From: Natronorubrum halophilum
GTDB lineage: Archaea; Halobacteriota; Halobacteria; Halobacteriales; Natrialbaceae
Assembly: GCF_003670115.1 (NCBI RefSeq)
Contig: NZ_QQTY01000005.1
Span: 1-64,000 of the forward strand
DNA: 64,000 nucleotides
Direction of reading: 5' to 3'
The translations under genes were made by a program, and so were the position numbers. This document shows positions 8,155-26,567 of this stretch, one piece after another (position 1 is the first letter of the stretch; every line of letters starts with the position of its first letter). The notes under the pieces were generated by a model that worked only from the letters and a program-made list of their open reading frames with translations, made no database searches and was not told where the DNA came from.

Positions 8155-8694
8155 CTACTCGAACGCCGCCGTGTCGCCGCGGCGGTAGCGGTCGAGTCGG
8201 CGGTAGCCGTGGACGGTCGCGCCGTCGTCCAGTTCGATCTCGTAGCGGCCGATGATGTCCTGGGTGTCGGGAACGGCTCGCCGTTCGACGACTTCGACAA
8301 CCGCACGCCAGCCGTCCTCAGTCGGAGCGATTTCGCTGACGGCGTCGAACTCCCTGCCGATGAGTTCGCCCGCCGTCGACCGGACCCGTTGTCGAACGGC
8401 GAGGACGCCTTCGATCTCGTCGTGATCGGTTTCGACGTCCGCATCGACGTCGTCGGGGTCCGACTTCTCTTCGGCGGTCATGTCGGCCGAGAGGTCTCGG
8501 CTCCGGGTTTCGTCGGTCGCCTGTTCGTCTTGTTCTTGTTCGTTTTCGGCTGTTTGACTGTCACTCACGGTTGAATCACTCTCATCGTGTTGGTAGCAAA
8601 AGCCGTCGTCTCGGGCTGGCCGTGAACAGCGCTCGCCGTCCTCGGTAAGCGCCTTGCACTGCTCCGCTGATTGCTGTGTATCGGCTTCAGCCAT
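8155..8694 (-). CDS. gvpO: Gas vesicle protein GvpO with N-terminal zinc-knuckle extension
   Basis: The C-terminal half (about residues 95-175) is classical GvpO, with GWRAVVEVVERRAVPDTQD and GRYEIELDD leading to YRRLDRYRRGD. GvpO is an accessory protein needed for gas vesicle formation in haloarchaea. Preceding it is a long acidic linker and an unusual N-terminal module with Cys13, Cys23, Cys33 and His36 (C-x9-C-x9-C-x2-H), a compact zinc-knuckle pattern. The 179-residue length exceeds the roughly 120 residues of Halobacterium GvpO. It lies 81 bp downstream of gvpN on the same strand. Confidence 0.93.
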   Translation of the reverse strand: MAEADTQQSAEQCKALTEDGERCSRPARDDGFCYQHDESDSTVSDSQTAENEQEQDEQATDETRSRDLSADMTAEEKSDPDDVDADVETDHDEIEGVLAVRQRVRSTAGELIGREFDAVSEIAPTEDGWRAVVEVVERRAVPDTQDIIGRYEIELDDGATVHGYRRLDRYRRGDTAAFE

Positions 8695-8775
8695 TGGCTT
8701 GAATTGGAACCTGTTATCGTTTCGTCGCTGGATTGCTGTGCTGGTATCGCGTGGCTGGACTCTGTCTCGACCGCG

Positions 8776-9813
8776 TCAGAGCGAGTCGGCGATCTGCGTC
8801 CGTAGCTGGGAGACGTCTTCGGGACCTTCGCCGGCGATCTTCGGCGAGAGAACGTCCGTGAAGACGTCTGCCAGCAGTTCGTCGTCGAACTGTCCGCTCT
8901 CGTGATCGCCGTTTTGCGTCCCGTCGAAGACGGCGAGCCCCTTTGCGGCCGTGATCGCCGCTCGCGTCCCGACGACCACGTCGAGTTCGTCGCGAAGCGC
9001 TCGCGTCGTCTCGACGATCACCTCGATGTCTTCCGCCGACATATCGACGTGGGACCGAACGATCTCGCGTTCGGTCTCGCCGTCGTAGTAGTCGATGTGA
9101 ACGCCGACGAACCGATCGAGTAGCGCATCCTGTTGTCGGTGGACGCCGGCGTACTCGACGTCGTTCGAGGTCAGTATCGCCCGAAACTCGGGGTGGACGT
9201 CGATCGATCGATCCTCGCCGCGCTTGCCCGGTCGCTCGAGGACGCCTTCCTCGAAGACCGAGAGCAAGACGTTGTGGGCGGAGGGATCGCTGCGCGAGAA
9301 CTCGTTGTAGACGAGCGTCGCGCCCTCTCTGACGGCGACCGAGAGCGGGTTGTCGACCCAGCGCTCGCGGACGATCTCCGTCTGTTTGCTGACGCCGCCG
9401 ACGAACTGGTCGTTTTCCTTGTATCGCTCCCCGCCGGCGTGGGCACCGACGAGCGCGGCCGTGTCGACGGACTCGTCTCCGTTGAGCCAGACGACCGGAC
9501 GGCCGCGCTCGGCGGCTGCCGACAGCGCAAGCGCAGTCTTCCCACAGCCCGTCGGGCCGATCAGGTGGACCGGCTGATCCGCTTCGAGCCAGCCGTTGAT
9601 CCGGTCTCGGAGCGACGCAACGGCATCCGTCTCGACGAACGGCTCCGGAGCGACCGCTTCCGGGGCGGAGAGTGGACTATCGCCGTTCTTCTCGCCCGTT
9701 TTCGACGTTTTTCGGGCCAGTTCTTTCTTCGCTCGTCGCCCCTCTTTCTCCGAACGGTCGGTCGTGATCTTTCTTCCTCTGACCTTGCGCTTGCGGGAAG
9801 AATCGTCGGCCAT
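8776..9813 (-). CDS. gvpN: Gas vesicle AAA+ ATPase GvpN
   Basis: This 345-residue MoxR-like AAA+ ATPase is required for enlargement of gas vesicles to full size. A basic, charged N-terminal region of about 45 residues precedes the Walker A box GPTGCGKTAL. A Walker-B-type strand (TLVYNEFSRSDP) and sensor-type segment (AILTSNDVEYAG) follow. It starts 6 bp after gvpA ends and is therefore in one transcription unit with it; gvpC, which often sits between gvpA and gvpN, is absent here. Confidence 0.95.
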   Translation of the reverse strand: MADDSSRKRKVRGRKITTDRSEKEGRRAKKELARKTSKTGEKNGDSPLSAPEAVAPEPFVETDAVASLRDRINGWLEADQPVHLIGPTGCGKTALALSAAAERGRPVVWLNGDESVDTAALVGAHAGGERYKENDQFVGGVSKQTEIVRERWVDNPLSVAVREGATLVYNEFSRSDPSAHNVLLSVFEEGVLERPGKRGEDRSIDVHPEFRAILTSNDVEYAGVHRQQDALLDRFVGVHIDYYDGETEREIVRSHVDMSAEDIEVIVETTRALRDELDVVVGTRAAITAAKGLAVFDGTQNGDHESGQFDDELLADVFTDVLSPKIAGEGPEDVSQLRTQIADSL

Positions 9814-10483: not shown

Positions 10484-11107
10484 ATGACGAACCGGTACGT
10501 CTACGGCGTCATGACCGACGAGCCGATCGAGTTCGAAACCGACGCCGTCGGCGGAGAAACGCAGGTCTACACGATCTCGCACCGTCGTCTCAGCGCCGTC
10601 GTCTCTGACATCGATACCACCGATCCCGAGGAAACCGACGAGGACGCTCAGCGCCACGACGACGTCCTTCGGGAGATCATGGACCGCGACGGCGGTCGCA
10701 CCATCGTGCCGATGCAGTTCGGAATGGCCTTCGAGAGCGATCGAGCCCTGAAGAACGTCCTCCGCGGCGCCAGACCGGCGTTCCGGCGCGCGATAAACGA
10801 TATCGAGGGCCGGATCGAGCTCGGTCTCAAGGTCGTTCGCGAGGAGGACGCCGACGTCGACGCGGACGCGATCGAAGAGGCCGTCGCGGACACGCTCGAG
10901 CCGATCGCCGCCCAGTCGGTGCCCAACGACCTGTTCAGCGATCGACTCGTGCTCAATCGTTCGTACCTCGTCGAACGCGACGAACGCGAGGCGTTCGACG
11001 ACGCGGTCGCCGAACTCGAGGAAACGCACGACGACCTCATCTTCCGGTACACGGGACCGTTCGCCCCGTACAGCTTCGTCGACGTCAAAATCGGAGCCCA
11101 ACGCTAA
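10484..11107 (+). CDS. gvpF: Gas vesicle protein GvpF
   Basis: This 207-residue GvpL/GvpF family protein is an accessory factor that binds GvpA during early assembly. The N-terminal strand NRYVYGVMTDEPI, the segment RTIVPMQFGMAFES and the C-terminal RYTGPFAPYSFVDVKIG are family hallmarks. It opens the plus-strand operon; its stop is 2 bp before the gvpG start, indicating translational coupling. Confidence 0.95.
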   Translation: MTNRYVYGVMTDEPIEFETDAVGGETQVYTISHRRLSAVVSDIDTTDPEETDEDAQRHDDVLREIMDRDGGRTIVPMQFGMAFESDRALKNVLRGARPAFRRAINDIEGRIELGLKVVREEDADVDADAIEEAVADTLEPIAAQSVPNDLFSDRLVLNRSYLVERDEREAFDDAVAELEETHDDLIFRYTGPFAPYSFVDVKIGAQR

Positions 11108-11109
11108 CC

Positions 11110-11364
11110 ATGTTCATCCTCGACGACCTCCTGATCCGGCCGTTCGTCGGCATCGTAGACACGCTGCACACGATGGCGATCAGTGAGATGTACGATATCG
11201 AGGCGCTCGAGGACGAACTCAAGGAGAACCAGTTGCTGTACGAACTCGGCGAACGCTCCGACGAGGAGTACCGGCGACGCAAGGACGAACTCGAGGCCGA
11301 GCTCGAGATCGCCCGCGACGTTCACGAACGACTCGCGAGCGGCCGCGTGGAGGTGAAAAGCTAA
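11110..11364 (+). CDS. gvpG: Gas vesicle protein GvpG
   Basis: The 84-residue GvpG family protein has an N-terminal hydrophobic stretch (MFILDDLLIRPFVGIVDTL) followed by a charged, probably coiled-coil segment (YDIEALEDELKENQLLYEL and EEYRRRKDELEAELEIA). It is an accessory protein essential for vesicle formation in haloarchaea. Its stop overlaps the gvpH start by one base. Confidence 0.94.
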   Translation: MFILDDLLIRPFVGIVDTLHTMAISEMYDIEALEDELKENQLLYELGERSDEEYRRRKDELEAELEIARDVHERLASGRVEVKS

Positions 11365-11939
11365 TGATACCAGACGATTCCGAACCGAACGACCGACGGG
11401 ACGAACCGGCCGACGAGAACCACTGGCTCTCGAGCCTCTTATCGGCCCTGCAGTGGCTCGAAGACGACTCGGTGTCGGGACGAAAGCGAACCGATCGGAC
11501 GGTTCTCGATTACGATATCTCGGTTCGAACGGGGGAGTCCCTGGACGACCAGACGCAGTTCGACCGACGGTCGGATACCGGCGACGACCGCGACCGCATC
11601 GATCACGATCGCCCCCGAACGCGACGGTACCGGCCCTCGTCGACCGCGCCGTCGGATGATCATCACCTGACGACGCGAGAAGCCGACGACGAGATGCTCG
11701 TCACTGCCGACGTCACCGGCACCGATCCGGACGACGTCACCGTCGGGTTCGACGAGACGATGCTCGTCATCGCCGTCTCCGGTCGCGAAATCGATCGAGT
11801 CGACGTTCCGTGGCGCGATCGAACGGCCGAAGCGACGATCAAGAACGGGATACTCTCCGTCCGGGTCACTCCGAACGAAGACGACCCTGAAGGTGACGAA
11901 GCGGCGAACGCGGACCCCGACGCGGAGGACGACCGATGA
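11364..11939 (+). CDS. gvpH: Gas vesicle protein GvpH, Hsp20-like
   Basis: The product has 191 residues. The N-terminal half is hydrophilic and poorly conserved. The C-terminal part (DDEMLVTADVTGTDPDDVTV, MLVIAVSGREIDRVDVPW and AEATIKNGILSVRV) is an alpha-crystallin/Hsp20-like beta-sandwich, in agreement with the chaperone-like role of GvpH in stabilising vesicles. It overlaps gvpI by four bases. Confidence 0.93.
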   Translation: MIPDDSEPNDRRDEPADENHWLSSLLSALQWLEDDSVSGRKRTDRTVLDYDISVRTGESLDDQTQFDRRSDTGDDRDRIDHDRPRTRRYRPSSTAPSDDHHLTTREADDEMLVTADVTGTDPDDVTVGFDETMLVIAVSGREIDRVDVPWRDRTAEATIKNGILSVRVTPNEDDPEGDEAANADPDAEDDR

Positions 11940-12841
11940 GCGACGACAGCGCCGATTCCTTCGAAACGCTGCTCGAGGACGCGACGGAGAGTCTCGATCG
12001 ACTCGAGGACTCCCTCGGCGGCGTCGAGCAACTCGACGACCTCGACGACAGTATCGTCGAGTCGGTGCTCGGTGACGTCGAGACGCTCGCGAACGTCCTC
12101 ACGGAGACCGACGAGTTGCTCGAGGAGATCGATTTTAGCGATCTTCCCGACGCCGTCGACGGCGACGAACTCCTCGAGGCGATCGAAACCGGCGAGATTC
12201 CGGACGTACTCGCGGACGAAGACGCGGGTGCGACGGATCTCGTCGACTTCACGCAACTCTTTCGGGCGATCGATCTGCTCTCCGCCTGGGACGCGACGGA
12301 TCTCACCGATCTGTGGCAGGAAACGCGCGAACTCGAGGACGCGGTCGACGACCTCGACGATGGGGAGGACGCGGGGATGGTCGAAGATGCGATCTCGGAT
12401 GTCGCGGACGACGACGGCGACGGCGACTTGATCGGCGACGACGACGATGACCTGATCGAGATGGATGCGGCCGACGCGAAGGAGGCGCTCGGCGATATCG
12501 ACGTCGCGGAGGATCCAGAGGCGTATCAGGTTGCCATCCAGCAGCAGGCGATGGAAGGAATCGACGCCTTCCGGGAGGCGCTGCTCGAGACCCACGAGAA
12601 GTTCGAACGGCTCTACGAGTTCAACCGCGAGAAGATGCGCCGGCAGGATACCAGCACGAGCTCGCGGAACCCGACCGCGGCGTCGACGATCCAGACCGAT
12701 CGCCGCGACCTCGGTGGGGGGGGCCGTCACTCAACGGTGCCCCAGGAAGTCAAACTCTCGACGGCGCCCAGCCGAAAGCGCATCTACGGGCGTCGATTCG
12801 AGATCGAACGGGAGAAAAAACGGAGGTCCAACAATGAGTGA
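11936..12841 (+). CDS. gvpI: GvpI-position protein with large acidic N-terminal region
   Basis: The 301-residue protein occupies the gvpI slot between gvpH and gvpJ. Residues 1-190 are extremely acidic and probably helical (repeated LEDATESLDRLEDSL-type heptads and a DDDGDGDLIGDDDDD run). The last 50 residues are basic, with the stretch HSTVPQEVKLSTAPSRKRIY and then GRRFEIEREKKRR, resembling the basic tail expected of GvpI. It is about twice the size of Halobacterium GvpI, so it may be a GvpI fused to an acidic coiled domain. The gene name rests mainly on position and tail. Confidence 0.65.
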   Translation: MSDDSADSFETLLEDATESLDRLEDSLGGVEQLDDLDDSIVESVLGDVETLANVLTETDELLEEIDFSDLPDAVDGDELLEAIETGEIPDVLADEDAGATDLVDFTQLFRAIDLLSAWDATDLTDLWQETRELEDAVDDLDDGEDAGMVEDAISDVADDDGDGDLIGDDDDDLIEMDAADAKEALGDIDVAEDPEAYQVAIQQQAMEGIDAFREALLETHEKFERLYEFNREKMRRQDTSTSSRNPTAASTIQTDRRDLGGGGRHSTVPQEVKLSTAPSRKRIYGRRFEIEREKKRRSNNE

Positions 12842-12944
12842 TCCACTACAGCACACGGCCGAGCGACGCCGAGTGAGCCAGACGACCGATTCGATCGCGG
12901 AGCCGGGACGGGCCGGCAAGGGAGGTGATCGCCGTGGTCGATGA
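12834..12944 (+). CDS. Small ORF of 36 codons bridging gvpI and gvpJ
   Basis: ATG 12834 lies inside the end of gvpI and is preceded by GGAGGT at 12822-12827, a good ribosome binding site. The peptide begins MSDPLQHTAERRR, ends at TGA 12944 and overlaps the gvpJ start by 11 bases. The MSDP start resembles the N-terminus of Halobacterium GvpJ. It may be a coupled leader ORF, or the original gvpJ N-terminus separated from the rest by a reading-frame change. It was found by reading the junction; function unknown. Confidence 0.45.
   Translation: MSDPLQHTAERRRVSQTTDSIAEPGRAGKGGDRRGR
12921..12930 (+). promoter_or_regulatory. gvpJ: Perfect Shine-Dalgarno sequence deciding the gvpJ start
   Basis: GGAGGTGATC is a full complement of the archaeal 16S rRNA 3' end. 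It is placed 3 bases before GTG 12934 and overlaps the alternative GTG at 12925. It therefore argues that translation of gvpJ begins at 12934. Confidence 0.75.
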
Positions 12945-13509
12945 CTTCCAGCCGAGCCGGCAGAAGGCCGACCTCGCGGAGGTCGTCGAGATGCTGCTCG
13001 ACAAGGGTATCGTCATCAACGCCGACATCGCCGTCTCGATCGGCGACACGCAACTGCTCGGCGTCCAGGTCCGGGCTGCGATCGCCTCCTTCGAAACCGC
13101 GGCGAAGTACGGCCTCGAGTTCCCCGAGGGGACCGACATGCGACGCGTCGCCGCGGCGGTCGACGAGCCAGAACTCGCGGAGATAGACCGGCCGAAGCCG
13201 CCGATCGATCCGACGCGGGGCGTCAACGTCACGCCCGACGAACGGTACGCGGACGAGACGCGCGAGGAGTTTTCGGACGAGGACGGCGAGAGCGGTGACT
13301 CGAGCGAGAACGACGACCAGTCCGAGCGAGGAACCGAACACATCGGCGCACGGCCGAATCCGGATCGACCGACGAGCGGCGGATTCGACCTGCTCAGCGA
13401 CGAGACGGAGTCCGCGGACGACAGTGCGGACGCGGGCGACGGGACCGACGCCGAGGACGACGAAAACAACGCCGGTGAAACCACGGACGCGGAGGTCGAG
13501 GACGAATGA
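12934..13509 (+). CDS. gvpJ: Gas vesicle protein GvpJ with long acidic tail
   Basis: This 191-residue member of the GvpA/J/M family is a minor accessory or structural protein thought to act in nucleating vesicles. The conserved core is at residues 10-75: [40 protein letters not shown] and [11 protein letters not shown]. Beyond it is a roughly 110-residue highly acidic, Ser/Asp/Glu-rich tail, making it much longer than the roughly 115 residues of the Halobacterium protein. The start at GTG 12934 is chosen from the exact ribosome binding site at 12921-12930. It overlaps gvpK by four bases. Confidence 0.93.
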
Positions 13510-13850
13510 GCCAGATCGACGTCGGCGACGGTGAGGACGCGCGACAGGGGCTGATCACCCTCGTCATCACCGTCGTCGAGATCCTGATCGACGCCCTCGA
13601 GCGCGAGGCGGTTCGGCGCATGGAGTCGGGGAACCTGGCCGACGAGGAGATCGAACGGCTCGGCCAGCAACTCGCGACGATCGAGGACGAGATCGAACAG
13701 CTCAAAGACGACGAGGGGATCGAGGACGGCGTCGACGACCTTCGCGGCGACCTGGACGGACTGGTCAACGACGCGATCGAACAACTCCACGGCGACCCGA
13801 ACGTCACCCACGCGCCCGGGTACTCCGTCTTCGGAGGTGACGAGGAATGA
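13506..13850 (+). CDS. gvpK: Gas vesicle protein GvpK
   Basis: The 114-residue GvpK family protein is recognised from [20 protein letters not shown] and [13 protein letters not shown], followed by a predicted coiled coil ([20 protein letters not shown]). It is an accessory gas vesicle assembly factor. It overlaps its neighbours gvpJ and gvpL by four bases each. Confidence 0.94.
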
Positions 13851-14758
13851 GTTCCGATCAACTCGACGATATCGAGGACCTCGACGACATCGAAGACGCC
13901 GTCGATCAGGCGGACGTCCCCGAAATCGACGAGGGGCGATACCTCTACTGTATCGTTCGGGCCGACGCCGGCGACACGCTCGAGACGACCGGGGTCGACG
14001 GCGAACCCGTCTCGGTCGTCGTCGAGGACGGCATCGGCGCGGTCGTCCACGAATGCGACGGGATCTACGACTCGGCGGATCTCACGGAGATCAGACGCTG
14101 GCTCGTCCGCCACCAGGTGGTCGTCGACGAGGCCGGCGAGGCCTTCGGCACGCCGATCCCGTTCCAGTTCGATACGATCCTCCAGAGCGACGACGACGGC
14201 GTTCGCGAGTGGCTTCGATCGGAGTCCGGCATGCTCGAGCGAGCGCTATCGGGGCTCGCGGACCACTGGGAGTACCGCGTCGAGGTCGTCGAAACCGACC
14301 CGATCAGCGACGACGCGCTGATCGAACGCGACGAGCGACTGAGCGAACTCGACGATCGGATCGGCGACTCCGAGGAGGGGACGGCCTTCCTGCTCGAGAA
14401 GAAATTCGAGCAACGGCTCACGGAACTGCGGGCGGCGCGTCGCGAGTCAATCACGGCCGACCTTCAGGACCGTCTCGACGAGCACGCACGGGAGGTTCAC
14501 TCCCTCGAGCGCTCACCCAGTGCGTCGCTCTCGGACGAGATGGCCAACGAGGCGGACGCGGCGAGCGACGGCGAAACGCTCTCCCGACTCACGCTGCTCG
14601 CTCACGAGGACGACGAAGGGGCGATCGGATCCGTGCTCGACGACGTGGCGGCACACGACGGACTGGAGGTCAGATTCACGGGCCCCTGGCCGCCGTACAC
14701 GTTCGCACCGGAACTGGGCGGTGACGAGGAGTCAGCGGGCGCACAGACACAGTCATGA
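13847..14758 (+). CDS. gvpL: Gas vesicle protein GvpL
   Basis: This 303-residue GvpL/GvpF family protein is larger than the GvpF encoded at 10484. An acidic lead of about 25 residues precedes [13 protein letters not shown]. Middle segments include [12 protein letters not shown] and a coiled region, and the C-terminus has [16 protein letters not shown], matching the family signature. GvpL is reported to contact several other accessory Gvp proteins and may act as an assembly scaffold. Four-base overlaps tie it to gvpK and gvpM. Confidence 0.94.
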
Positions 14759-15114
14759 GACCACAAAAAAACGAAGAGACGTTCGTCGACGTACTCGACG
14801 TACTGCTCCGGGATGGGGCGATCTTGCGCGCGGACGTCATCGTCTCGGTCGCGGAGATACCGCTCGTGGGGGTCAAACTCACGGCGGCCATCGCCGGCAT
14901 GGAGACGATGAACGAGTACGGCCTCTTCGAGGAGTGGGATATCGAACGCCGGCGGACGGCGATCACCCGTCGCCAGCACAACCAACCCGGTCAACGGGAG
15001 AAACGTCTCCGTCGGCAGCGAGAACGCGACCGGAATCGCGAGTTCGACGGTCTCGACGAGATCACGGTCGACCCCGATCGGGATCGAGACCAGGGCGACG
15101 AGAAGTCGGCGTGA
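14755..15114 (+). CDS. gvpM: Gas vesicle protein GvpM
   Basis: The 119-residue product is the third GvpA/J/M-family member of the locus. The core spans FVDVLDVLLRDGAILRADVI and the VSVAEIPLVGVKLTAAIAGM region. The C-terminal 45 residues are basic and Arg-rich, unlike the acidic tail of GvpJ. It is the last gene of the plus-strand gas vesicle operon. Confidence 0.94.
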   Translation: MRPQKNEETFVDVLDVLLRDGAILRADVIVSVAEIPLVGVKLTAAIAGMETMNEYGLFEEWDIERRRTAITRRQHNQPGQREKRLRRQRERDRNREFDGLDEITVDPDRDRDQGDEKSA

Positions 15115-17445: not shown

Positions 17446-18507
17446 TCAGAACTCGGTGATGACGGGAATGCCGACCGTCTCGTACTCGTCCATCGATCCC
17501 AGCGTCTCCGGCAGTTCGTCGAGCGAGAGCGTCTCGCCGATGATCTTGCCCGGCTCGAGCGTTCCCTGTGCGATCAGGTTGAACAGTTCCTCGTACCGGA
17601 CGAGCGGCATGCCGAAGGAGCCGTGGAAGTCGATCTCCTGCATCGTCATGATATCGACGGGCAGGTCGACCTGCCCCCGTTCCTCGCCGGTCGTCAGGCC
17701 GACCTGAACGTGACTACCCCGTGTTCCGAGACTGTTGACCGAGTTCCGGCAGGTCTCGGCGATACCCAGCGCGTCGATCGAGACGTCAGCGCCGCCGCCG
17801 GTGATCGTTTTGACTTCCCGCGGGGCGCTGTCGACGTCGGCTCCGTTGATCGTCTCGACGGCACCGAGTTCCGCCGCTCGCTCGAGTTTGGCGTCGAGGA
17901 CGTCGATCGCGATCGGGTGTGCGCCGAGCGCCTGCGCGATGTGGATCGCCGAGAGGCCGACGCCGCCACAGCCGTGGACAGCCACCCAGTCGCCGGGTCG
18001 GAGGTCGGCCCGGTCGGCCAGCGCGTGGTAGGCGGTCATGAACCGACAGCCGAGACCGGCCATCTCGGAAAAATCGACGTTTTCGGGCAGTTTGACGCAG
18101 TTGAAGTCGGCTTCGCGGACCGGGAACGCTTCCGCGAACGCGCCCTGGGAGTACTCCGAGAGGCCGAGCGGAAGAACCGACTCGCAGTTGTTCGCACGCC
18201 CCTCGCGACAGTGCGGACAGGTGCCGTCGCCGAGGTGGAACGGAACGGCGACCCGGTCGCCCTCCTCGAGCGTCTCGACGTCGTCACCGACTTCGGAGAC
18301 GATTCCGGCGGGCTCGTGCCCGAGAATCTGTCCCTCCGGGACGCCCGCTCCGATCCAGCTCCAGTCACCCTGCCAGGCGTGCCAGTCGCTGCGACAGACC
18401 CCACACGCTTCGGTCTCCACGACGACCTGATCCGGCCCCGGCTCCGGATACGCCACGTCCTCGATCTCGAGCGGTTCTCCGTGTTCGTCGATGACGGCTG
18501 CTCGCAT
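17446..18507 (-). CDS. Zinc-dependent alcohol dehydrogenase (MDR family)
   Basis: The 353-residue medium-chain dehydrogenase shows CGVCRSDWH (catalytic zinc Cys), GHEPAGIV, the structural zinc motif CPHCREGRANNC and the Rossmann segment VHGCGGVGLSAIHIA. The start MRAAVIDEHGEPL at 18507 is chosen over the frame start 12 codons upstream because it matches the family N-terminus. It should oxidise an alcohol or reduce an aldehyde with NAD(P). It is divergent from the aldehyde oxidoreductase homologue at 18744. Confidence 0.9.
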   Translation of the reverse strand: MRAAVIDEHGEPLEIEDVAYPEPGPDQVVVETEACGVCRSDWHAWQGDWSWIGAGVPEGQILGHEPAGIVSEVGDDVETLEEGDRVAVPFHLGDGTCPHCREGRANNCESVLPLGLSEYSQGAFAEAFPVREADFNCVKLPENVDFSEMAGLGCRFMTAYHALADRADLRPGDWVAVHGCGGVGLSAIHIAQALGAHPIAIDVLDAKLERAAELGAVETINGADVDSAPREVKTITGGGADVSIDALGIAETCRNSVNSLGTRGSHVQVGLTTGEERGQVDLPVDIMTMQEIDFHGSFGMPLVRYEELFNLIAQGTLEPGKIIGETLSLDELPETLGSMDEYETVGIPVITEF

Positions 18508-18743
18508 GTACCCGTGATTCCGCTGGCTGCTACAAAAGTTCATGAGATATAAGAGAGCAGGAAACGTGTAAGCGGTTTATTTCGGCTCGAGCGAGCAGGT
18601 CTCCGTCTCCGATCACGAGTTGCGTGTCCGTTCTCGAGCCGGGCGACGAGTCGCCGGTAACGCCTCCGCGCCGCCGATATCGACCTCAGCGACTATCGCA
18701 CCGGGGAACCGTTAAAGGTCGCACACCGCGTACGCGATACCTA

Positions 18744-20567
18744 ATGTCTCGGCAGTACCCGACGCGCGTTCTCCGGGCCGATCTCTCGTCCGGGACCGTC
18801 ACCAGCGGGCGGGTTCCGGAGGCGTGGCTCGAGCGGTACGTCGGCGGAAAGGGGATCGGAGCCAGATTCCTCTACGAGGAACTCGAGGCCGGGACGGACC
18901 CGCTGTCGGCCGAGAACGTCCTGTGTTTCGCGGTCGGCCCGGTGACGGGGTCGATGCCGGGTGAAGCGAAATACGCGGCGATCACGAAGTCGCCGCTGAC
19001 CGGGACCTTTCTCGACTCCTACAGCGGCGGGTCGTTCCCGAAGCGGCTCGCGGGATCGCTGGGGGATCACCTCGGCATCCTCGTCACGGGACGCGCCGAC
19101 GAAGCGGTCGTCCTCTCGGTCGCCGACGGAAGTGCGACGATCGAATCCGCGGACGAACTTCGGGGTGCGGACGCCGAGACGACCTGCGAGGCGTTTCCCG
19201 ACGCCGGGGTCGCCTGTATCGGCCCCGCCGGCGAGCACCAGGTCCAGTACGCGACCATCGCCGCCGACGGCGGGGCCCACCACGCCGGCCGGGGCGGTGC
19301 CGGCGCGGTCATGGGCTCGAAACGGCTCAAGGCGGTCGTCGCCCGCGGAGAGGGACCGACGGGACTCGAGGAGATCCGAGAACGCTACGAGCGGCGAGTA
19401 GCCGAGAGCGAGACCGGCCGCTGGCACGCCGCAAGCGCGACGGTGGAGACGATCGACTTCGCGGACGAAGTCGGCGTCCTCCCGACGCGGGGCTGGCAGG
19501 ACGGGCGGTTCGACGGCGCGTCGGAACTCGGGATCGAAGCAGTTCGCGAACGGGCGTCCGAGCGCGAACGGAACGACGACGCCGTCCCCGGCGGCTTCCG
19601 CGTCGAGGGCGACGCGGGCGAGAGCGTCCCCCGCGGCGCGACGCCGATCGTGCTCGGGGCGGGGCTGGGGATCGACGATTTCGACGCCGTGGCCGCGCTC
19701 GGTGCGACCTGTGACCGACTCGGAATCGACGTGATCACCGCGGGCAACGCGGTGGCCTGGGCGGTCCGGGCGAGCCAGGAGGGGCTGCTCGAGCGAGCGC
19801 TCTCCTTCGGCGACGACGAGGCCGCTCGAGAGCTGATTCAGCAGATCGCGACCCGCGAGACGTCGCTCGGCGACGCGCTCGCCGACGGCATCGAGGCGGC
19901 GGCCGCCGCGTTCGGCGACGAGGACCTCATCCCGATGGTCAAAGGGATGGACTGCTCGTCGTACGATCCCCGCGGTGCCGAGACGATGGCGCTCGCGTAC
20001 GCGACCAGCGACCGCGGCGCTTGCCATCGTCGCGCGCGCCCGGTCGAGTCCGAAGCACTCGGACGACCGTGGCCGAGCGACCGCGCCCGCGTCGCCGCCG
20101 TCGCGGGCGAGCAGAACCGACGGGCCGTCCTCTGGAGCCTGATCGCCGACGACGTCCTCGAGGACGCCCTCACGGACGATCTCGGTGCCGAGTGGCTCGC
20201 CGCGGTCGGCCGCGAGTACGACCGGTCCGAACTGGCGACCGTCGGCGAACGGATCTGGACCCTGGTTCGACTGTTCAACGTGCGCGAGGGGTTCACCCGA
20301 GAGGACGATGCGCTCCCCCCGGCGCTGCTCGAGCCACAGGCCGACGCCGACGGCACGGACAACGGACTCGATCCGGAACGCTTCGACGCGCTGCTCGACG
20401 CTTACTACCGATATCGGGGCTGGGACGAAGCGGGACGGCCGACTCGGGAGACGATTCGGCGACTCGGACTCGAGTCGGTCGTCGACGAGGAGACGCCGGT
20501 TCCCGAGGACGACGGTTCGACGGGCGGGACGCGACCCGGAGCCGCCCGCGGAGGTGACCGACGATGA
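18744..20567 (+). CDS. Aldehyde:ferredoxin oxidoreductase homologue lacking cluster cysteines
   Basis: The 607-residue protein is homologous to tungsten-dependent AOR enzymes. The N-terminal pterin-binding domain has GGKGIGARFLYEEL and GRGGAGAVMGSKRLKAVVA. The C-terminal domains contain GLGIDDFDAVAALGATCDRL, YDPRGAETMALAYATSDRGA and the following CH. The [4Fe-4S] motif expected just before residue 300 (CxxCxxxC) is replaced by DDAVPGGFRVEGD, and the fourth ligand region (normally a Cys in a DxLGLC-like motif) reads IADDVLED. The enzyme may therefore lack the cluster or have lost redox function. ATG 18744 follows a TTAAAG box near 18712. Confidence 0.88.
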   Translation: MSRQYPTRVLRADLSSGTVTSGRVPEAWLERYVGGKGIGARFLYEELEAGTDPLSAENVLCFAVGPVTGSMPGEAKYAAITKSPLTGTFLDSYSGGSFPKRLAGSLGDHLGILVTGRADEAVVLSVADGSATIESADELRGADAETTCEAFPDAGVACIGPAGEHQVQYATIAADGGAHHAGRGGAGAVMGSKRLKAVVARGEGPTGLEEIRERYERRVAESETGRWHAASATVETIDFADEVGVLPTRGWQDGRFDGASELGIEAVRERASERERNDDAVPGGFRVEGDAGESVPRGATPIVLGAGLGIDDFDAVAALGATCDRLGIDVITAGNAVAWAVRASQEGLLERALSFGDDEAARELIQQIATRETSLGDALADGIEAAAAAFGDEDLIPMVKGMDCSSYDPRGAETMALAYATSDRGACHRRARPVESEALGRPWPSDRARVAAVAGEQNRRAVLWSLIADDVLEDALTDDLGAEWLAAVGREYDRSELATVGERIWTLVRLFNVREGFTREDDALPPALLEPQADADGTDNGLDPERFDALLDAYYRYRGWDEAGRPTRETIRRLGLESVVDEETPVPEDDGSTGGTRPGAARGGDRR

Positions 20568-20644
20568 CTGACCGGCTCGATCTGGCCGTCGAGTCGCTCC
20601 CGGTGGTGCTCTCCGGATTCTCGTCGGGCACGGGACCAGACTAA
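20564..20644 (+). CDS. Tiny ORF overlapping the end of the AOR-like gene
   Basis: ATG 20564 overlaps the preceding stop by four bases and is preceded by GGAGGTGA at 20550-20557. It reads 26 codons (starts MTDRLDLAVESLP) to TAA 20644. Coupling and ribosome binding site suggest real translation. The stop is followed, in another frame, by a further protein-like stretch (about 20640-20760). The ORF could therefore be the front of a broken small gene such as a MoaD-like partner; this is a guess. Confidence 0.35.
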   Translation: MTDRLDLAVESLPVVLSGFSSGTGPD

Positions 20645-21442
20645 TCGACTTCTACAACTCCCGGTCGGTCGACGCGCCCTTCGTCGCCTCCCATGGCCTG
20701 CTCGAGACCGTCTTCGCGACGCCCTCTCGAGCGCCCGCGAATCACTCTGCATCGACCGGTGCCGGCTGGAGAGCGATCTGACAGGCAGAAAAATAACAAA
20801 TCCTAGCCAGTGAAATTCTATAGACATAATTTGCCGTGCCGTAATGGATCACGTATCGAGAGATATTGCCGCTCGTTTTCCTATAGGGCGTAATTAGGCC
20901 GTTTCTGTGTGACATTGTTGGAGACGAATCAGTCTCCGATCGTCCCGATAGCTTAAAACTGATAACTGCCATTATCGGACTATATAGGGCTAAAGAACCA
21001 TCTTCTGTATTCGAGATCTCTCGTGAACTGAGGGACGCCGAAAATATACGATTACTGTGTATTCCGGCTATATCAATACTACTTGATAATAGGTGGTCGG
21101 TCGATTCGGCCTTCGCTCTCGCCTCGAGTTCGTTCGCCCGGCTTACCGCTCGTGACCCGCCGCATCCCTGCTCTCGACTCGGCATGCGTTCACTCGCCCT
21201 CCGTTCTCACGCGCTCGACGATGTCGGAGCGAAACTACTCGGACCGATCCGCCGGATGATGGGTCGAGTGTCGATCGCTACTTCGCGCCCCTCGAGGCGC
21301 GAAACGTCGGGTCAATGCCGTCTCGAGAATCGACCGAGACGGTTCGCGAACCCGACGCGAAGCGACCAGATCACTTTCTTCCACAACGTTGTAGTCGACT
21401 GCTTTGTTGTACATTTACAATGTTGTATGTGAATGCCTCGAT
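20645..21442. other. Long AT-richer intergenic region, possible decayed gene
   Basis: From about 20780 to 21090 base composition drops to clearly AT-rich, unlike the flanks. A plus-strand frame stays open from 20887 to 21432 and, between about 20915 and 21080, reads protein-like (SLKLITAIIGLYRAKEPSSV) but has no good start codon. An opposing minus-strand frame is open across 20742-21185. Neither has recognisable homology or haloarchaeal codon use, so this looks like foreign or decaying DNA. The last 60 bp hold the operator-like boxes of the next gene. Confidence 0.4.
21383..21426 (+). promoter_or_regulatory. Paired ACAAYGTTGT boxes before the acyl-CoA dehydrogenase gene
   Basis: ACAACGTTGT at 21383-21392 is a perfect 10-bp palindrome and ACAATGTTGT at 21417-21426 is a one-base variant 34 bp further on. 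Between and overlapping them is TTGTACATTTACAA (5-bp inverted arms). The second box ends 16 bp before ATG 21443, so it should overlap the core promoter or start site. A bound repressor would block transcription. Confidence 0.5.
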
Positions 21443-22693
21443 ATGGAGTACCACGACTCCGAGAAAGCGAACGAGGTCGCCGGGCGCGTAGAGGATTTCC
21501 TGGAGGAAGTCGTCCTTCCCCGCGAACGCGAGGCGCTCGCGACGGGCGAGCGGATCACGATGGACGAGATCGAAGGCTTCTGGGAGGAAGCCAAAGAGCG
21601 CGACCTGTTCGCGCCGCAGGTTCCCGAGGAGTACGGCGGCCAGGGCCTCGACTTCAGCGACATGCTGCCGTCGTTCGAGCAGGTCGGCCGGTCGCTCATA
21701 GGCGCGCTCGCGATCCGCGCGAACGCCCCGCAGGAGGGGAACATGCACACCTTAGAGATGGTGGGTACCGAAGAGCAGAAAGAGGAGTACTTGCGCCCGC
21801 TCGTTCAGGGCGAGATCTCCTCGGCGTTCGCGATGACCGAGCCCAAACAGGGCGGCGGCTCGGATCCGAAGATGCTCCAGAGTACGGCCGTCAAAGACGG
21901 CGACGAGTGGGTCATCAACGCCCACAAGTGGTGGACGTCCGACGGCCTCGATGCCGATTTCTATCTGACGATGGTCCGGACCGATCTGGACGCCCACCCC
22001 TACTCCGGAACGTCGATCATCCTCGTCCCGGCCGACGCCGACGGCGTCGACGTCGTACGCAACATCCCCCACGTCGGCGGCCACGGCATCACCGAACGCG
22101 AGGGCGGTCACGCCGAGGTGAAGTTCGACGACGTCCGCGTCCCCGTCGAGAACACGATCGGCGAGGAAAACGACGGGTTCCAGATCGCACAGATGCGACT
22201 CGGCGGCGGCCGACTCACCCACTGCATGCGCTACTCGGGGATGGCCGAGCGGTCGCTCGACGTCGCGAAGGCCTACCTCAGCGAGCGCGAGGCCTTCGGC
22301 ACGACGCTCGAGGAGAAACAGGCGCTGCGCCACCGGATCGCGGACGCCGAAACGCGCCTGCACGCGGCACGCTGTATGGTCCGTCACGCCGCGCGCGAAC
22401 TCGACCGTAGCGACGCCCGCATCGAGGTCGCGATGGCCAAGATGTTCACCGCGAACGTCACCCAGGATACCATCGACCTCGCGCTGCAGTGTTGTGGCGG
22501 CAACGGCATCGGGAAGGATCTCCCGATCGCACACTTCTACGAGAACGTCCGCGCGTTCCGCATCGTCGACGGGGCCGACGAAGTCCACCGCCGCTCGATC
22601 GCCCGCTGGGCCTTCGAGGACGTCGACGAAACGGAGATCGAGAACGCGCTGCAGTTCGACGAGGGCCTGCGCATCGACGCGTTGGACGAGTAG
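21443..22693 (+). CDS. Acyl-CoA dehydrogenase
   Basis: The 416-residue FAD enzyme catalyses alpha,beta-dehydrogenation of an acyl-CoA. Family segments are VPEEYGGQGLDFSDMLP, AFAMTEPKQGGGSDPKML, AHKWWTSDG, GGGRLTHCMR and LQCCGGNGIGKD, followed by YENVRAFRIVDGADEVHRR. The start MEYHDSEKAN (21443) is preferred to a frame start 13 codons upstream that would lie in the promoter palindromes. It is the first of several beta-oxidation genes in this region. Confidence 0.93.
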   Translation: MEYHDSEKANEVAGRVEDFLEEVVLPREREALATGERITMDEIEGFWEEAKERDLFAPQVPEEYGGQGLDFSDMLPSFEQVGRSLIGALAIRANAPQEGNMHTLEMVGTEEQKEEYLRPLVQGEISSAFAMTEPKQGGGSDPKMLQSTAVKDGDEWVINAHKWWTSDGLDADFYLTMVRTDLDAHPYSGTSIILVPADADGVDVVRNIPHVGGHGITEREGGHAEVKFDDVRVPVENTIGEENDGFQIAQMRLGGGRLTHCMRYSGMAERSLDVAKAYLSEREAFGTTLEEKQALRHRIADAETRLHAARCMVRHAARELDRSDARIEVAMAKMFTANVTQDTIDLALQCCGGNGIGKDLPIAHFYENVRAFRIVDGADEVHRRSIARWAFEDVDETEIENALQFDEGLRIDALDE

Positions 22694-22779
22694 CCTCGAG
22701 CCTCGAGCGGCGTTCTCCGGAGGTAACCAGTCCTTTGCATGCCGTGAAATTTTCCGTCCCTATACCTTCAGTATCATCT

Positions 22780-22950
22780 ATGCCTGGATTGATTCAGCGA
22801 ACGGCACGGGCGATCGATGATATGTGGCAGTCGATCTGGCACGGATCAAGTCGCGCCGAGAAAGTCGTAATCGCCATCGTACTTCTGGTCACCGGATTGG
22901 CCATTCCGGTGATCCCGATCGTCTGGATCGCCCGGATTATCGCCAACTAA
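22780..22950 (+). CDS. Small single-span membrane protein
   Basis: The 56-residue product starts MPGLIQRTARAIDDMWQSIW and contains one strong hydrophobic helix (VVIAIVLLVTGLAIPVIPIV). A TATA-like CTATACC about 20 bases upstream suggests a leaderless or nearly leaderless message. It lies between the acyl-CoA dehydrogenase and thiolase genes. Function unknown. Confidence 0.6.
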   Translation: MPGLIQRTARAIDDMWQSIWHGSSRAEKVVIAIVLLVTGLAIPVIPIVWIARIIAN

Positions 22951-23079
22951 TACACGGCGCAGCGGGGCGAGATACGCGCTCAGCACGACCGGTGAAATCC
23001 ATCTCCGTGTGAGGGTTTCGCCAAGGTCATCGTGTGTGAACTCGGACAGGTCGGAACGGCAACCCCGTCTCGCCCGACC

Positions 23080-24249
23080 CTACACTCGTTCGATGATCGT
23101 CGCGACGCCCTGCCCGAAGCCGACGCACATCGTCGAGAGCCCCCGGTCCTGCCCGCTCCGCTCGAGTTCGTGAGCCAACTTCGTTAGCAGCGCCGCGCCG
23201 GTTGCGCCCAGCGGATGGCCGTGGGCGATCGCGCCGCCGTTGACGTTGACGGCCTCCCAGGAGACGCCGGTCTCCTCGAGCCACGCGCCCACGACCGAGG
23301 CGAACGCCTCGTTGACCTCGAACAGATCGATCTCCTCGATATCTATGCCGGCCTTCTCGAGGACCCCCTCGGTCGCCGGAATCGGTCCCGTGAGCATCGT
23401 GACGGGGTCGACGCCGACGACTTCCGTTTGAACGATTCGGGCCATGGGCTCCCAGCCGTGTTCCTCGGCGGCCGCCTCGCTCGCGATCAGCAGCGCCGAC
23501 GAGCCGTCGACGATCCCCGAGGAGTTGCCGGGATGGTGGACGCCCTCGCCTTCCTGGCGGAAGGACAGCGGAAGGTTCGACAGCGTCTCGAGGTCGGTAG
23601 CCGGCCGCGGGTGTTCGTCCTGCTCGACGCGCACCCGCTCCCCGTCGAATTCGGTTTCGACGGGAACGATCTGGTCGTCGTACCGATCCTCATCCCAGGC
23701 GTCGCCCCATCGGCGCTGGGAGTCGACGGCGAGTTCGTCGAGTTCCTCGCGCGTGAAGTCGTAGTTCTCGGCGATGCGTTCGGCCCCCTCTCCCTGGTGG
23801 GTCAACTCGTCGAAGTGCTCGAAGTAGGTGTCCGTAACGGCGCTCTTACCGTCCACGCCGTCGGCCCCGTCGGAGCCCATCGGGACGCGGGTCATGTGTT
23901 CGACCCCGCCCGCGATCAGCACGTCGTGTTGACCCGCCATCACGTTCGCCGCCGCGAAGTTGACCGCCTGCTGGCCGGAGCCACACATCCGGTTGAGCTG
24001 GACGCCGGGAACGGTATCGCCCCAGCCCGCGATCATCGGTGCGAGTCGGCCGATGTTGAGCCCCTGCTCGTCGATCGGCGTCACGCAGCCGTAGATAACG
24101 TCCTCGATCGTCTCGGGCTCGAAATCGGTGCGCGTTCGGAGCGCCTCGAGCGGTTTCGCCGCCAGATCCTGCGGGTGCGTGTCGCGGAACGAGCCGTCCC
24201 GCTTGCCGAAGGGCGTCCGGACCGCATCGACGATGACTGCGTTGTTCAT
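23080..24249 (-). CDS. Acetyl-CoA C-acyltransferase (thiolase)
   Basis: The 389-residue thiolase performs the last step of beta-oxidation or the reverse condensation. The nucleophilic Cys89 lies in NRMCGSGQQAV. The His motif is in GGAIAHGHPLGATGAAL and the second Cys in STMCVGFGQGVATI. Length and start (MNNAVIVDAVRTPFG) are standard. It is transcribed divergently from the enoyl-CoA hydratase gene. Confidence 0.95.
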   Translation of the reverse strand: MNNAVIVDAVRTPFGKRDGSFRDTHPQDLAAKPLEALRTRTDFEPETIEDVIYGCVTPIDEQGLNIGRLAPMIAGWGDTVPGVQLNRMCGSGQQAVNFAAANVMAGQHDVLIAGGVEHMTRVPMGSDGADGVDGKSAVTDTYFEHFDELTHQGEGAERIAENYDFTREELDELAVDSQRRWGDAWDEDRYDDQIVPVETEFDGERVRVEQDEHPRPATDLETLSNLPLSFRQEGEGVHHPGNSSGIVDGSSALLIASEAAAEEHGWEPMARIVQTEVVGVDPVTMLTGPIPATEGVLEKAGIDIEEIDLFEVNEAFASVVGAWLEETGVSWEAVNVNGGAIAHGHPLGATGAALLTKLAHELERSGQDRGLSTMCVGFGQGVATIIERV

Positions 24250-24453
24250 GGGCCTCCTAAGACAACGAGCGTGATAGGATTTCTGCTCGAGCGCGCTCGA
24301 CGGACGTCGCCGATCGAGAGACCGGCGAGGACGACGGTGGTAGGTAACGCGACGGTCAGCGCGCGGATCGGCTCGAGTTCGCGGTCACCGACGGCTCCCG
24401 ATTCGCCGCCGCCGATCCAGACGTTATTTGGTGATCGATCGTGATCGTCAGCC

Positions 24454-25251
24454 ATGGACGAAGATTTCGACACGGTCATGGTGGAATTCGACGACGAAAC
24501 CGGCGTGGGAACGGTCACGATGAACCGCCCGGACGCGCTCAACGCGCTCAACGGCCAACTCAGGGACGATATCGTTGCGGGGCTCCGGCGACTCGAGGCC
24601 GAAAACGAAGCGGCGGAGGGCGTCGCCTTGCGAGCCGTCGTGCTCGAGGGGGCCGGTGAGAAAGCCTTCTGTGCCGGCGCGGACGTCGGCGGCTTCTCGT
24701 CGGATTCGGCCGGGGCGTCCTCCGAGCCGTCCCACTACGAGTTCATCAGGGAGTTTCCGGTGCCCGTGATCGCGAAGATCGACGGCTACTGTCTGGGCGG
24801 CGGCCTCGAGACCGCGCTCGCGTGTGACTTCCGGCTGGCGAGCGAGGGCAGCGCCGTCGGCTTTCCGGAAGTCAATCTGGGGATCTTCCCCGGTGCCGGC
24901 GGCGTCCAGTACGTCACGAAACTGGCCGGCCCCGCCGTCGCCAAGGAACTGGCGATGACCGGCGACCACATCTCGGCGGAGCGCGCCGCCGACGAGGGGA
25001 TCATCAACCACGTCTACGCCGATGACGAGTTCGAAGACGCGGTCGACGAGTTCGTCACCGACCTCGCGGGACAGGCACCGCTGGCTATCCAGGCGATCAA
25101 ACAGTCGGCCGCTATGGCCGTCCAGACGGGGCTGAACGAGGGAGTTGCCTACGACGGACAGCTCTTCGCGGAGCTCCTGCAGACCGACGATCACGCGGAA
25201 GGAGCCGCCGCGTTCGGCGAGGATCGAGATCCGGAGTTCCAGGGCAAGTAA
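24454..25251 (+). CDS. Enoyl-CoA hydratase/isomerase family protein
   Basis: The 265-residue crotonase-fold protein hydrates enoyl-CoA in fatty acid breakdown. The oxyanion-hole motifs are AFCAGADVGGFS and CLGGGLETALACDFRLAS, and GFPEVNLGIFPGAGG carries the usual catalytic-region glutamate. A TATA-like TTATTTGG about 30 bases upstream of ATG 24454 points to a leaderless transcript. Confidence 0.93.
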   Translation: MDEDFDTVMVEFDDETGVGTVTMNRPDALNALNGQLRDDIVAGLRRLEAENEAAEGVALRAVVLEGAGEKAFCAGADVGGFSSDSAGASSEPSHYEFIREFPVPVIAKIDGYCLGGGLETALACDFRLASEGSAVGFPEVNLGIFPGAGGVQYVTKLAGPAVAKELAMTGDHISAERAADEGIINHVYADDEFEDAVDEFVTDLAGQAPLAIQAIKQSAAMAVQTGLNEGVAYDGQLFAELLQTDDHAEGAAAFGEDRDPEFQGK

Positions 25252-25789
25252 CCGCTCAGAACGGACGATCCACGGATTGCGTCGGGCCGGCGACTGGCCC
25301 GTCCGACCGATACGGGTCCTACTGGTCCACGTGAGGTGGCGCGCGCTGTCGATCGGAACCGAGCGAAAGCGAGGGACGATCGACGACACTGCGCGAGGGA
25401 TGAGCGAGCGACTGGAAGGAGCGAGTGAATCGGCTGGGGAGGGCGTGGAGATTAATATTGCCGGCGCGAGTGGCGTGTAACAGACAGTTTGTTTATTCGC
25501 GCTGGCGGCTATGCATACCGCCTCCTCTCCAACCGATTCACTCGCACGTCATCGAACCGCGGTTCGGCGGTGACGAGCCACGGCACAGCGCGCGCCACCA
25601 CACGCGGATCGGTCGTTCCACGCTCTGGCTCTCGACCGAGTGGACCGTCTCTCGGCCGGACGAATCAGCCGTCACGAGGCATCCCGAAGAAAGACCGGCG
25701 ACGCCACGGTAACAACTGCAACGAGTTCCACACCGATCGCACAGCCATCGCGCGATCAAGTGTGCGGTGACTTGCAGCGGCTCCTCCAG
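25252..25789. other. Gene-free region between enoyl-CoA hydratase and truncated dehydrogenase genes
   Basis: These 538 bp hold no supported gene. The centre (25421-25545) is a long palindrome described separately. The right part lies where the missing C-terminal coding of the neighbouring 3-hydroxyacyl-CoA dehydrogenase would be expected, yet shows no similarity to that domain when read in the three minus-strand frames. Confidence 0.45.
25421..25545. repeat. MITE-like 125-bp element with 22-bp terminal inverted repeats
   Basis: The left arm 25421-25442 (begins GCGAGTGAATCGG) and right arm 25524-25545 are inverted repeats matching at 20 of 22 positions. Pairing continues imperfectly inwards, including GCGCGA/TCGCGC, so the whole element could fold into one long hairpin. 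It has no coding capacity. It could be a miniature transposable element or a structured RNA. Confidence 0.55.
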
Positions 25790-26524
25790 TCACCACTCCT
25801 CGCCGACTCCGCGCAGCGAGAACGGGCCGACGGGGAGGTTGTACCCTTCCTCGAGCGCCGTATCGACCTGCTCTTCCGTCGCGATGCCTTCGTCGACGAT
25901 CTGTTGGGCCTCCTCGCGCATCGCCGCGTGACACCGGTTGGCGATAAAGCCGTAGGAGCCCGGATCGTCGTCGATGGTGACGCTCGTCTTCCCGAGTTCG
26001 TCGACCAGTTCTTCGGCGCGCTCGACGACCGCCGCGTCGGTCTCGGGCGCTTGCACGATTTCGACCATCGACATGATCGGGACCGGGTTGAAAAAGTGCA
26101 TCACCGCGACGCGGGAGGGATCCGAGACCGCGTTCGCGATCGAGGTTACCGAAAAACCGCTCGTGTTCGAGTACAGCGGCTGGTCGTCGGTCGCGTCGTC
26201 CAAGTCGCGGAACACCTGTCCCTTGATCGCGAGGGTTTCGGTGACCGCCTCGAGGACGAACTCGGTGCCGTCGGTCGCGGCGTCGAGATCCGTCGTGAAC
26301 GACAGCCGCTCGAGCACCGCGTCTTTCTCCGCTTCGGAGAGGTAACCGCCCTCGACGGCGTCCTCGAGGCCGTAGTTTCCGGAGACGACCCGGTCGCGGG
26401 CCTCCGCGGCCAGCTCGTCGTTGAGTTCGCGAACGCGGACGTCGTAGCCGGCTCGCGCGAGGACCTGTGCAATTCCGGCACCCATAACGCCGCCGCCGAC
26501 GACGGCTGCTGATCGCTGTGCCAT
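25790..26524 (-). CDS. 3-hydroxyacyl-CoA dehydrogenase, C-terminally short
   Basis: The product has 244 residues from MAQRSAAVVGGG. It carries the NAD-binding motif VVGGGVMGAGIAQVLARAGY, the segment YSNTSGFSVTSIANAVSDPS, the catalytic His region VMHFFNPVPIMSMVEIV and DDDPGSYGFIANRCHAAM. Typical single-domain enzymes have about 285 residues, ending in a helical dimerisation region with KVRAGKLG and a GEGFY-like end. Here the protein stops at FSLRGVGEEW soon after the GYNLP motif. It may be truncated by rearrangement, or be a naturally short variant. Start 26524 is preferred over the frame start five codons upstream. Confidence 0.82.
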   Translation of the reverse strand: MAQRSAAVVGGGVMGAGIAQVLARAGYDVRVRELNDELAAEARDRVVSGNYGLEDAVEGGYLSEAEKDAVLERLSFTTDLDAATDGTEFVLEAVTETLAIKGQVFRDLDDATDDQPLYSNTSGFSVTSIANAVSDPSRVAVMHFFNPVPIMSMVEIVQAPETDAAVVERAEELVDELGKTSVTIDDDPGSYGFIANRCHAAMREEAQQIVDEGIATEEQVDTALEEGYNLPVGPFSLRGVGEEW

Positions 26525-26567
26525 GGACTCACAACTCACTCGGGATCCGATAATAGTTTCGATCGGC

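Follow-up and report, generated by a model that had tools for sequence, protein, structure and literature searches.

An AOR-family gene and its surroundings

The window, a stretch of 64,000 nucleotides from Natronorubrum halophilum (contig NZ_QQTY01000005.1, positions 1 to 64,000), carries on its forward strand a gene for a protein with both domains of the aldehyde ferredoxin oxidoreductase (AOR) family (Table 1). The AFOR_N domain scored 207.3 bits and the AFOR_C domain scored 313.8 bits, and both scores exceeded the curated cut-offs (29.8 and 27, respectively). The AlphaFold model (pLDDT 92) predicted an AOR/FOR fold over the full length of the protein, and Foldseek matched this predicted structure to 1b25, 9mqx, 9g7j, and 1aor with TM scores of 0.88 to 0.91, formaldehyde ferredoxin oxidoreductase being the top match. 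By both its Pfam domains and its predicted fold, the window protein is a member of the AOR/WOR family.

A zinc alcohol dehydrogenase gene is adjacent to the AOR-family gene and is transcribed divergently from it. Upstream of the alcohol dehydrogenase gene, the window holds a run of gas-vesicle-like genes (positions 10484 to 15114; GvpF/L-type and GvpA/J-type by eye), which the window has in common with the closest lineage (loci L053 to L056). Downstream of the AOR-family gene, positions 21404 to 26539 hold genes that were assigned by eye to an acyl-CoA dehydrogenase, a thiolase, an enoyl-CoA hydratase, and a 3-hydroxyacyl-CoA dehydrogenase, that is, to a fatty-acid oxidation set.

Table 1. Features of the AOR-family locus and its flanks (PfAOR, P. 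furiosus AOR)
Feature	Positions in window	Strand	Basis
Zinc alcohol dehydrogenase, lineage-specific neighbour	17446..18543	-	Locus comparison
Cluster-less AOR-family protein P0001, 607 aa	18744..20567	+	ORF call, Pfam, alignment, AlphaFold
AFOR_N domain, residues 8-202	18765..19349	+	Pfam PF02730, E 2.5e-61
K76, where the clade usually has Arg (R in 76/80; PfAOR R76)	18969..18971	+	Alignment
AFOR_C domain, residues 211-576	19374..20471	+	Pfam PF01314, E 2.4e-93
T233 (PfAOR T243, kept) and E235 (PfAOR V245)	19440..19448	+	Alignment
Stretch of the lost CxxCxxxC and PEYE motifs, RERNDDAVPGGFRVEGDAGESVPRGA; C288/291/295, Y312, and E313 absent	19563..19640	+	Alignment
First pterin motif CDRLGID (PfAOR 337-343), kept	19710..19730	+	Alignment
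Y407 (PfAOR Y427) and H428 (PfAOR H448), kept, then R429-R430; R429 clade-specific	19962..20033	+	Alignment
Lost second pterin motif and fourth cysteine, WSLIADDV; D489 -> W464, C494 -> D469	20133..20156	+	Alignment
26-codon remnant, MTDRLDLAVESLPVVLSGFSSGTGPD*, resembles the start of DUF7124	20564..20644	+	Translation

Loss of the [4Fe-4S] ligands across a haloarchaeal clade

In an alignment with P. furiosus AOR, the cluster ligands C288, C291, C295, and C494 corresponded to D278, a gap, G283, and D469 in the window protein, which bears out the first-pass annotation's claim that the [4Fe-4S] cysteine motif has been lost. Each of the other three AFOR_C proteins encoded in the N. halophilum genome has the four cluster cysteines. 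When relatives were searched for in 391 genomes of the class, and genomes holding only the sister clade described below were removed from the count, the protein was found in about 215 genomes, and close relatives were 58 to 80% identical (full-length, among the matches listed). A quick maximum-likelihood tree placed the cluster-less proteins in a monophyletic clade (support, 100); the first-pass annotation had suggested looking among haloarchaeal AOR homologues for just such a clade. The cluster cysteines were absent from all 80 aligned clade sequences, which came from about 50 haloarchaeal genera, and likewise from four further clade sequences on annotated plasmids, so that neither chance nor a sequencing artefact can account for their absence. 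The window protein has six cysteines (61, 148, 158, 323, 404, and 427), of which the clade conserves only C158, C323, and C427. The annotation had allowed that other conserved cysteines might occupy the cluster positions, but these three lie elsewhere and are present in cysteine-bearing AORs too; therefore, they are not substitutes for the cluster ligands and were rejected as alternatives.

The nearest neighbour of the clade in the tree was a cysteine-bearing haloarchaeal sister clade (L111, L113, and L115 to L117; 40 to 46% identity), the members of which are annotated as "aldehyde ferredoxin oxidoreductase family protein." Unlike the cluster-less clade, the sister clade retains CxxCxxxC, the fourth cysteine, Y312, and E313 (PfAOR numbering). 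Eight of the top matches outside the class, none of them more than 42% identical, were examined, and all eight had the four cysteines. No relative of the clade protein was found on viral contigs, and viral carriage was rejected. Among close pairs of clade proteins, dN/dS was 0.12 to 0.28, which indicated purifying selection. In Natrinema zhouii (L022, 9989 to 10510), a 173-aa remnant of the clade protein has an internal deletion that joins its start to its end, and its neighbours (an alcohol dehydrogenase, a 152-aa protein, and a DUF7124-like protein) are retained.

The altered region extends beyond the cluster, and the losses of Glu313 and Tyr312 had been missed by the first-pass annotation. 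Class I WORs carry two copies of a pterin-binding motif, DxxGL(D/C). The tungstopterin motifs had been described as intact; this was correct for the first motif and for Thr243, Tyr427, and His448 (PfAOR numbering), but the second motif, Glu313, and Tyr312 are lost. Thr243, Glu313, Tyr427, and His448 are the conserved second-shell residues of these enzymes (PMC12096430, PMC13328260), and Glu313 is the proposed proton acceptor or general base (PMC12096430). In the alignment, Glu313 was replaced by Ala, Gly, or Ser in 80 of 80 clade members and Tyr312 was replaced by Gly in every one, whereas T243, Y427, H448, and D343 were retained. The second pterin motif, DSAGLC in PfAOR (489 to 494), reads WSLIAD in the window protein and WSL[IV]xD clade-wide; position 489 is variable in cysteine-bearing AORs too. 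The Mg/phosphate-site segments are kept as DSY[SA]GG and HHAGRGG (the latter in 76/80), and since DSYSGG and HHAGRGG are also present in the cysteine-bearing sister clade, these segments are older than the loss of the cluster. Near-invariant residues on the cofactor side of the clade protein comprise T243, D338/D343, R430, R444, H448, and the Mg-site loops. Moreover, 14 sites that are near-invariant in the clade differ elsewhere, including E235, R297, G298, R429, W464, and D469. Glu occupies the E235 position, two residues C-terminal of Thr243, in 79 of the 80 aligned clade proteins and in none of five sister sequences. Judging from these residues, the pocket looks rebuilt rather than randomly decayed.

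Compared with the class I WOR/AOR enzymes (P. furiosus AOR, 1aor, and FOR, 1b25; Haloferax volcanii WOR83, 9q1t), the clade has both Pfam domains, a predicted full-length fold with TM scores of 0.88 to 0.91 to 1aor and 1b25, the first pterin motif, Thr243, Tyr427, His448, and a single-gene architecture in common. It differs from them in lacking the [4Fe-4S] ligands, Glu313, and Tyr312, in its altered second pterin motif, in its new invariant residues E235, R297, R429, W464, and D469, and in its genomic company of formate dehydrogenase and cofactor maturation genes. Altered ligands also occur in P. furiosus WOR4, in which one Cys is replaced by Gly and which has an Fe3S4 cluster and no known activity, and in WOR5/ASOR, in which the ligands are three Cys and one Asp (PMC12096430). 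Both of these proteins keep a cluster, whereas the clade is without all four ligands. As far as its sequence can be read, the clade protein is a protein of AOR fold that has kept most of the bis-MPT metal pocket and is unable to act as an aldehyde:ferredoxin oxidoreductase.

Formate dehydrogenase and cofactor genes in clade genomes

The recurrent neighbours of the clade gene are formate dehydrogenase (FDH) alpha subunits of at least four types, a TorD/NarJ-type chaperone, an HdrA-like multi-cluster protein, YqeC (TIGR03172, above its cut-off), MobA, FdhB, NrfD, and DUF7124. Genes for FDH, YqeC, MobA, TorD, FdhB, or HdrA-like proteins lay within about 8 to 12 kb in 33 of 47 clade loci (four of the 47 being annotated plasmids with wider flanks) and in 0 of 10 cysteine-bearing AOR loci; identical reference proteins were used on both sides, but they were drawn from clade loci, which gives some bias toward the clade. 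None of seven sister clade loci was near FDH, YqeC, MobA, or TorD genes. The window is among the 14 clade loci that are without such a neighbour, and in the N. halophilum genome YqeC, MobA, c37, and FdhA are clustered on a separate contig from the clade protein (L126, 6977 to 11615). One locus has, in order, the clade protein, FdhA, c37, MobA, YqeC, TupA-like, TupB-like, TupC-like, ModE-like, and MoeA, the last five having been assigned by eye from sequence. The DUF7124 gene lies directly 3' of the clade gene in 19 of 43 loci and is truncated in the window. Several genomes have C1-related neighbours, namely, a formamidase beside fdhF, formate-THF ligase, folP, and betaine-type FAD oxidoreductases.

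Small proteins were also observed in these surroundings. The c37 protein, a haloarchaeal protein of about 190 aa, is found repeatedly beside FdhA and MobA (L071, L079, and L126 at 8480 to 9043), and the N. halophilum contig with the YqeC-MobA-c37-FdhA cluster also encodes a small MoaD/ThiS-like protein (L126, 14677 to 14967). In 7 of 43 loci, a conserved protein of 130 to 150 aa (MELRVCxHCYxGTHGN...), which has no Pfam or NCBIfam match, is encoded close to either the clade protein or the HdrA-like protein; it is 135 aa long and upstream of the clade protein in L055 and was seen also in L053, L054, L058, L059, L061, and L063.

Co-occurrence across genomes pointed to the same genes. YqeC was present in 214 of 215 carrier genomes compared to 60 of 176 others (Fisher P = 8e-53, uncorrected for shared ancestry), and the single carrier without it (G362) is an 85% complete genome. 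An FDH-alpha-like match was present in all 215 carriers at E <= 1e-100 and in 202 of them at E <= 1e-200, the latter being a rough version of a stricter cut-off (284 genomes, compared to 289 by curated score). Few candidates were scored per genome, and none of these figures takes account of shared ancestry. The distribution was nested, with the clade protein within YqeC and YqeC within FDH; since 54 genomes have FDH and YqeC in the absence of the clade protein, the latter is not generally required for FDH. A single FdhA orthologue as obligate partner was rejected, as it was present in only 29 of 391 genomes. Class-wide, a strong FDH match was found in 255 of 274 genomes with YqeC and in 29 of 117 without it. 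Published discussion of YqeC treats it as an accessory to selenium-dependent hydroxylases, and its phenotype in C. difficile was not a clear one (PMC2276186, PMC11448449). In haloarchaea, it tracks formate dehydrogenase, also in the 54 genomes that lack the clade protein, and possibly has a role outside those hydroxylases. The clade gene shows both the genomic linkage to, and the co-occurrence with, client and cofactor genes by which an FDH accessory protein would be recognized (phylogeny uncorrected).

Possible roles of the clade protein

Since the cluster and the catalytic acid have been lost from a protein that is nevertheless selected intact and linked to FDH and cofactor genes, a new role is probable. 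The clade protein may be either a repurposed protein or a cofactor-bearing enzyme with another route for its electrons, the two readings given in the first-pass annotation. The clade protein is probably a former aldehyde-oxidizing enzyme that was turned to another task, and that task is perhaps the handling of a metal cofactor as a helper. Indeed, at a probability of roughly 0.4, we favour the reading that it is a bis-metal-MPT-binding accessory factor which would make or deliver the Mo/W cofactor of formate dehydrogenase. More tentatively, both catalysis and the cluster may have been given up for service as a scaffold or carrier of the bis-metal-MPT or bis-MGD of FDH, working with YqeC. As we infer its cofactor binding, its carrier or scaffold role, the order of the steps, and the client enzyme, the clade protein would, jointly with YqeC, hold the bis-metal-MPT intermediate (or finished bis-MGD) once MoeA has inserted the metal, either ahead of the MobA and TorD-type steps or while these take place; the client would be formate dehydrogenase, and the pathway would be common with YqeC and MobA. 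A functional analogue is proposed in the relay that includes FdhD, the fold of which is unrelated to the AOR fold. This MoeA1-MobB-MobA-FdhD relay accomplishes cofactor hand-over for W-formate dehydrogenase, and no AOR-like protein is described therein (PMC13197769).

E. coli YdhV, also of the AOR family, binds bis-Mo-MPT, and MobA can turn this ligand into bis-MGD in vitro (PMC9103625); the AOR fold is therefore able to hold this intermediate in a form usable by MobA. The class of YdhV has a labile [4Fe-4S] cluster, and YdhV itself has a Cys metal ligand and lacks the second-shell residues (PMC12096430); the clade is the reverse, with the second-shell T, Y, and H present. Several points count against the carrier reading. 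Such strict retention of T243, Y427, and H448 would be unnecessary in a protein that only carries the cofactor, and the invariant E235, R297, R429, and W464 look like a rebuilt active site rather than an emptied one. In addition, the clade protein is absent from 54 genomes that have FDH and YqeC, apo-YdhV showed no binding of bis-MGD (PMC9103625), and the 14 of 47 loci described above have no FDH or cofactor-gene neighbours.

The leading alternative, somewhat less probable, is that the clade protein is still a catalytic W/Mo-bis-MPT enzyme, its active site rebuilt for formate or C1 metabolism. E235 would stand in place of E313, an Arg-rich mouth would receive an anionic substrate, and the reaction would be either non-redox or a redox reaction in which the metal passes electrons directly to a partner, with no cluster between them. 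The strict conservation of T243, Y427, and H448, the 14 clade-specific near-invariant residues (E235, R297, R429, and W464 among them), the C1-handling neighbours in several genomes, and the best fold match of the predicted model to formaldehyde ferredoxin oxidoreductase are all consistent with such an enzyme, and YqeC could mature the clade protein's own cofactor. However, the clade protein has neither the proposed base, Glu313 (PMC12096430), nor the electron exit, and nucleotide attachment by MobA is unnecessary for a bis-MPT enzyme. Moreover, no C1 pathway gene is common to all loci, whereas FDH-like and YqeC genes are found in essentially all carriers.

It is unlikely that the clade protein is a pseudoenzyme that has ceased to bind the metal cofactor and serves a structural or regulatory purpose, such as pterin or metal sensing or acting as a protein partner of FDH or YqeC. 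The cluster, E313, and the second pterin motif have indeed been lost, but the near-invariant residues on the cofactor side and the full AOR fold predicted for the protein argue against this role. Less likely still is an ordinary aldehyde oxidoreductase with another electron route, which the first-pass annotation had tied to the neighbouring alcohol dehydrogenase through a shared aldehyde intermediate. The AOR fold and some second-shell residues are retained, and the alcohol dehydrogenase is indeed adjacent in the window; however, E313 and Y312 are lost clade-wide, and only 10 of 43 loci, chiefly those of the window's own lineage, have the alcohol dehydrogenase close to the clade protein. The proposed partnership was rejected as not conserved, and the zinc alcohol dehydrogenase is probably outside the system. 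A decaying pseudogene, as might be suggested by the loss of the adjoining DUF7124 gene, the unusual K76, and the deleted remnant in Natrinema zhouii, is most improbable and was rejected, because the open reading frame is intact, dN/dS relative to the closest relatives is 0.23 to 0.28, and the altered motifs are common to the whole clade.

The fold and the family were already known. The open literature searched (with most subscription papers and supplementary trees outside its scope) held no paper on a cluster-less AOR and nothing on DUF7124 and haloarchaeal FDH; neither an AOR clade free of cluster ligands nor a link of such a clade to YqeC and FDH was found there. Conserved and widespread but with no cluster ligand at all, the clade breaks the rule for a family under whose name, aldehyde ferredoxin oxidoreductase, it is annotated. 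The tight link to YqeC and FDH provides a concrete hypothesis on the assembly or delivery of the Mo/W cofactor in haloarchaea. If the scaffold or carrier reading of the clade protein is true, a new step in Mo/W cofactor maturation would be present in about half of haloarchaea, and YqeC would gain a role outside selenium-dependent hydroxylases.
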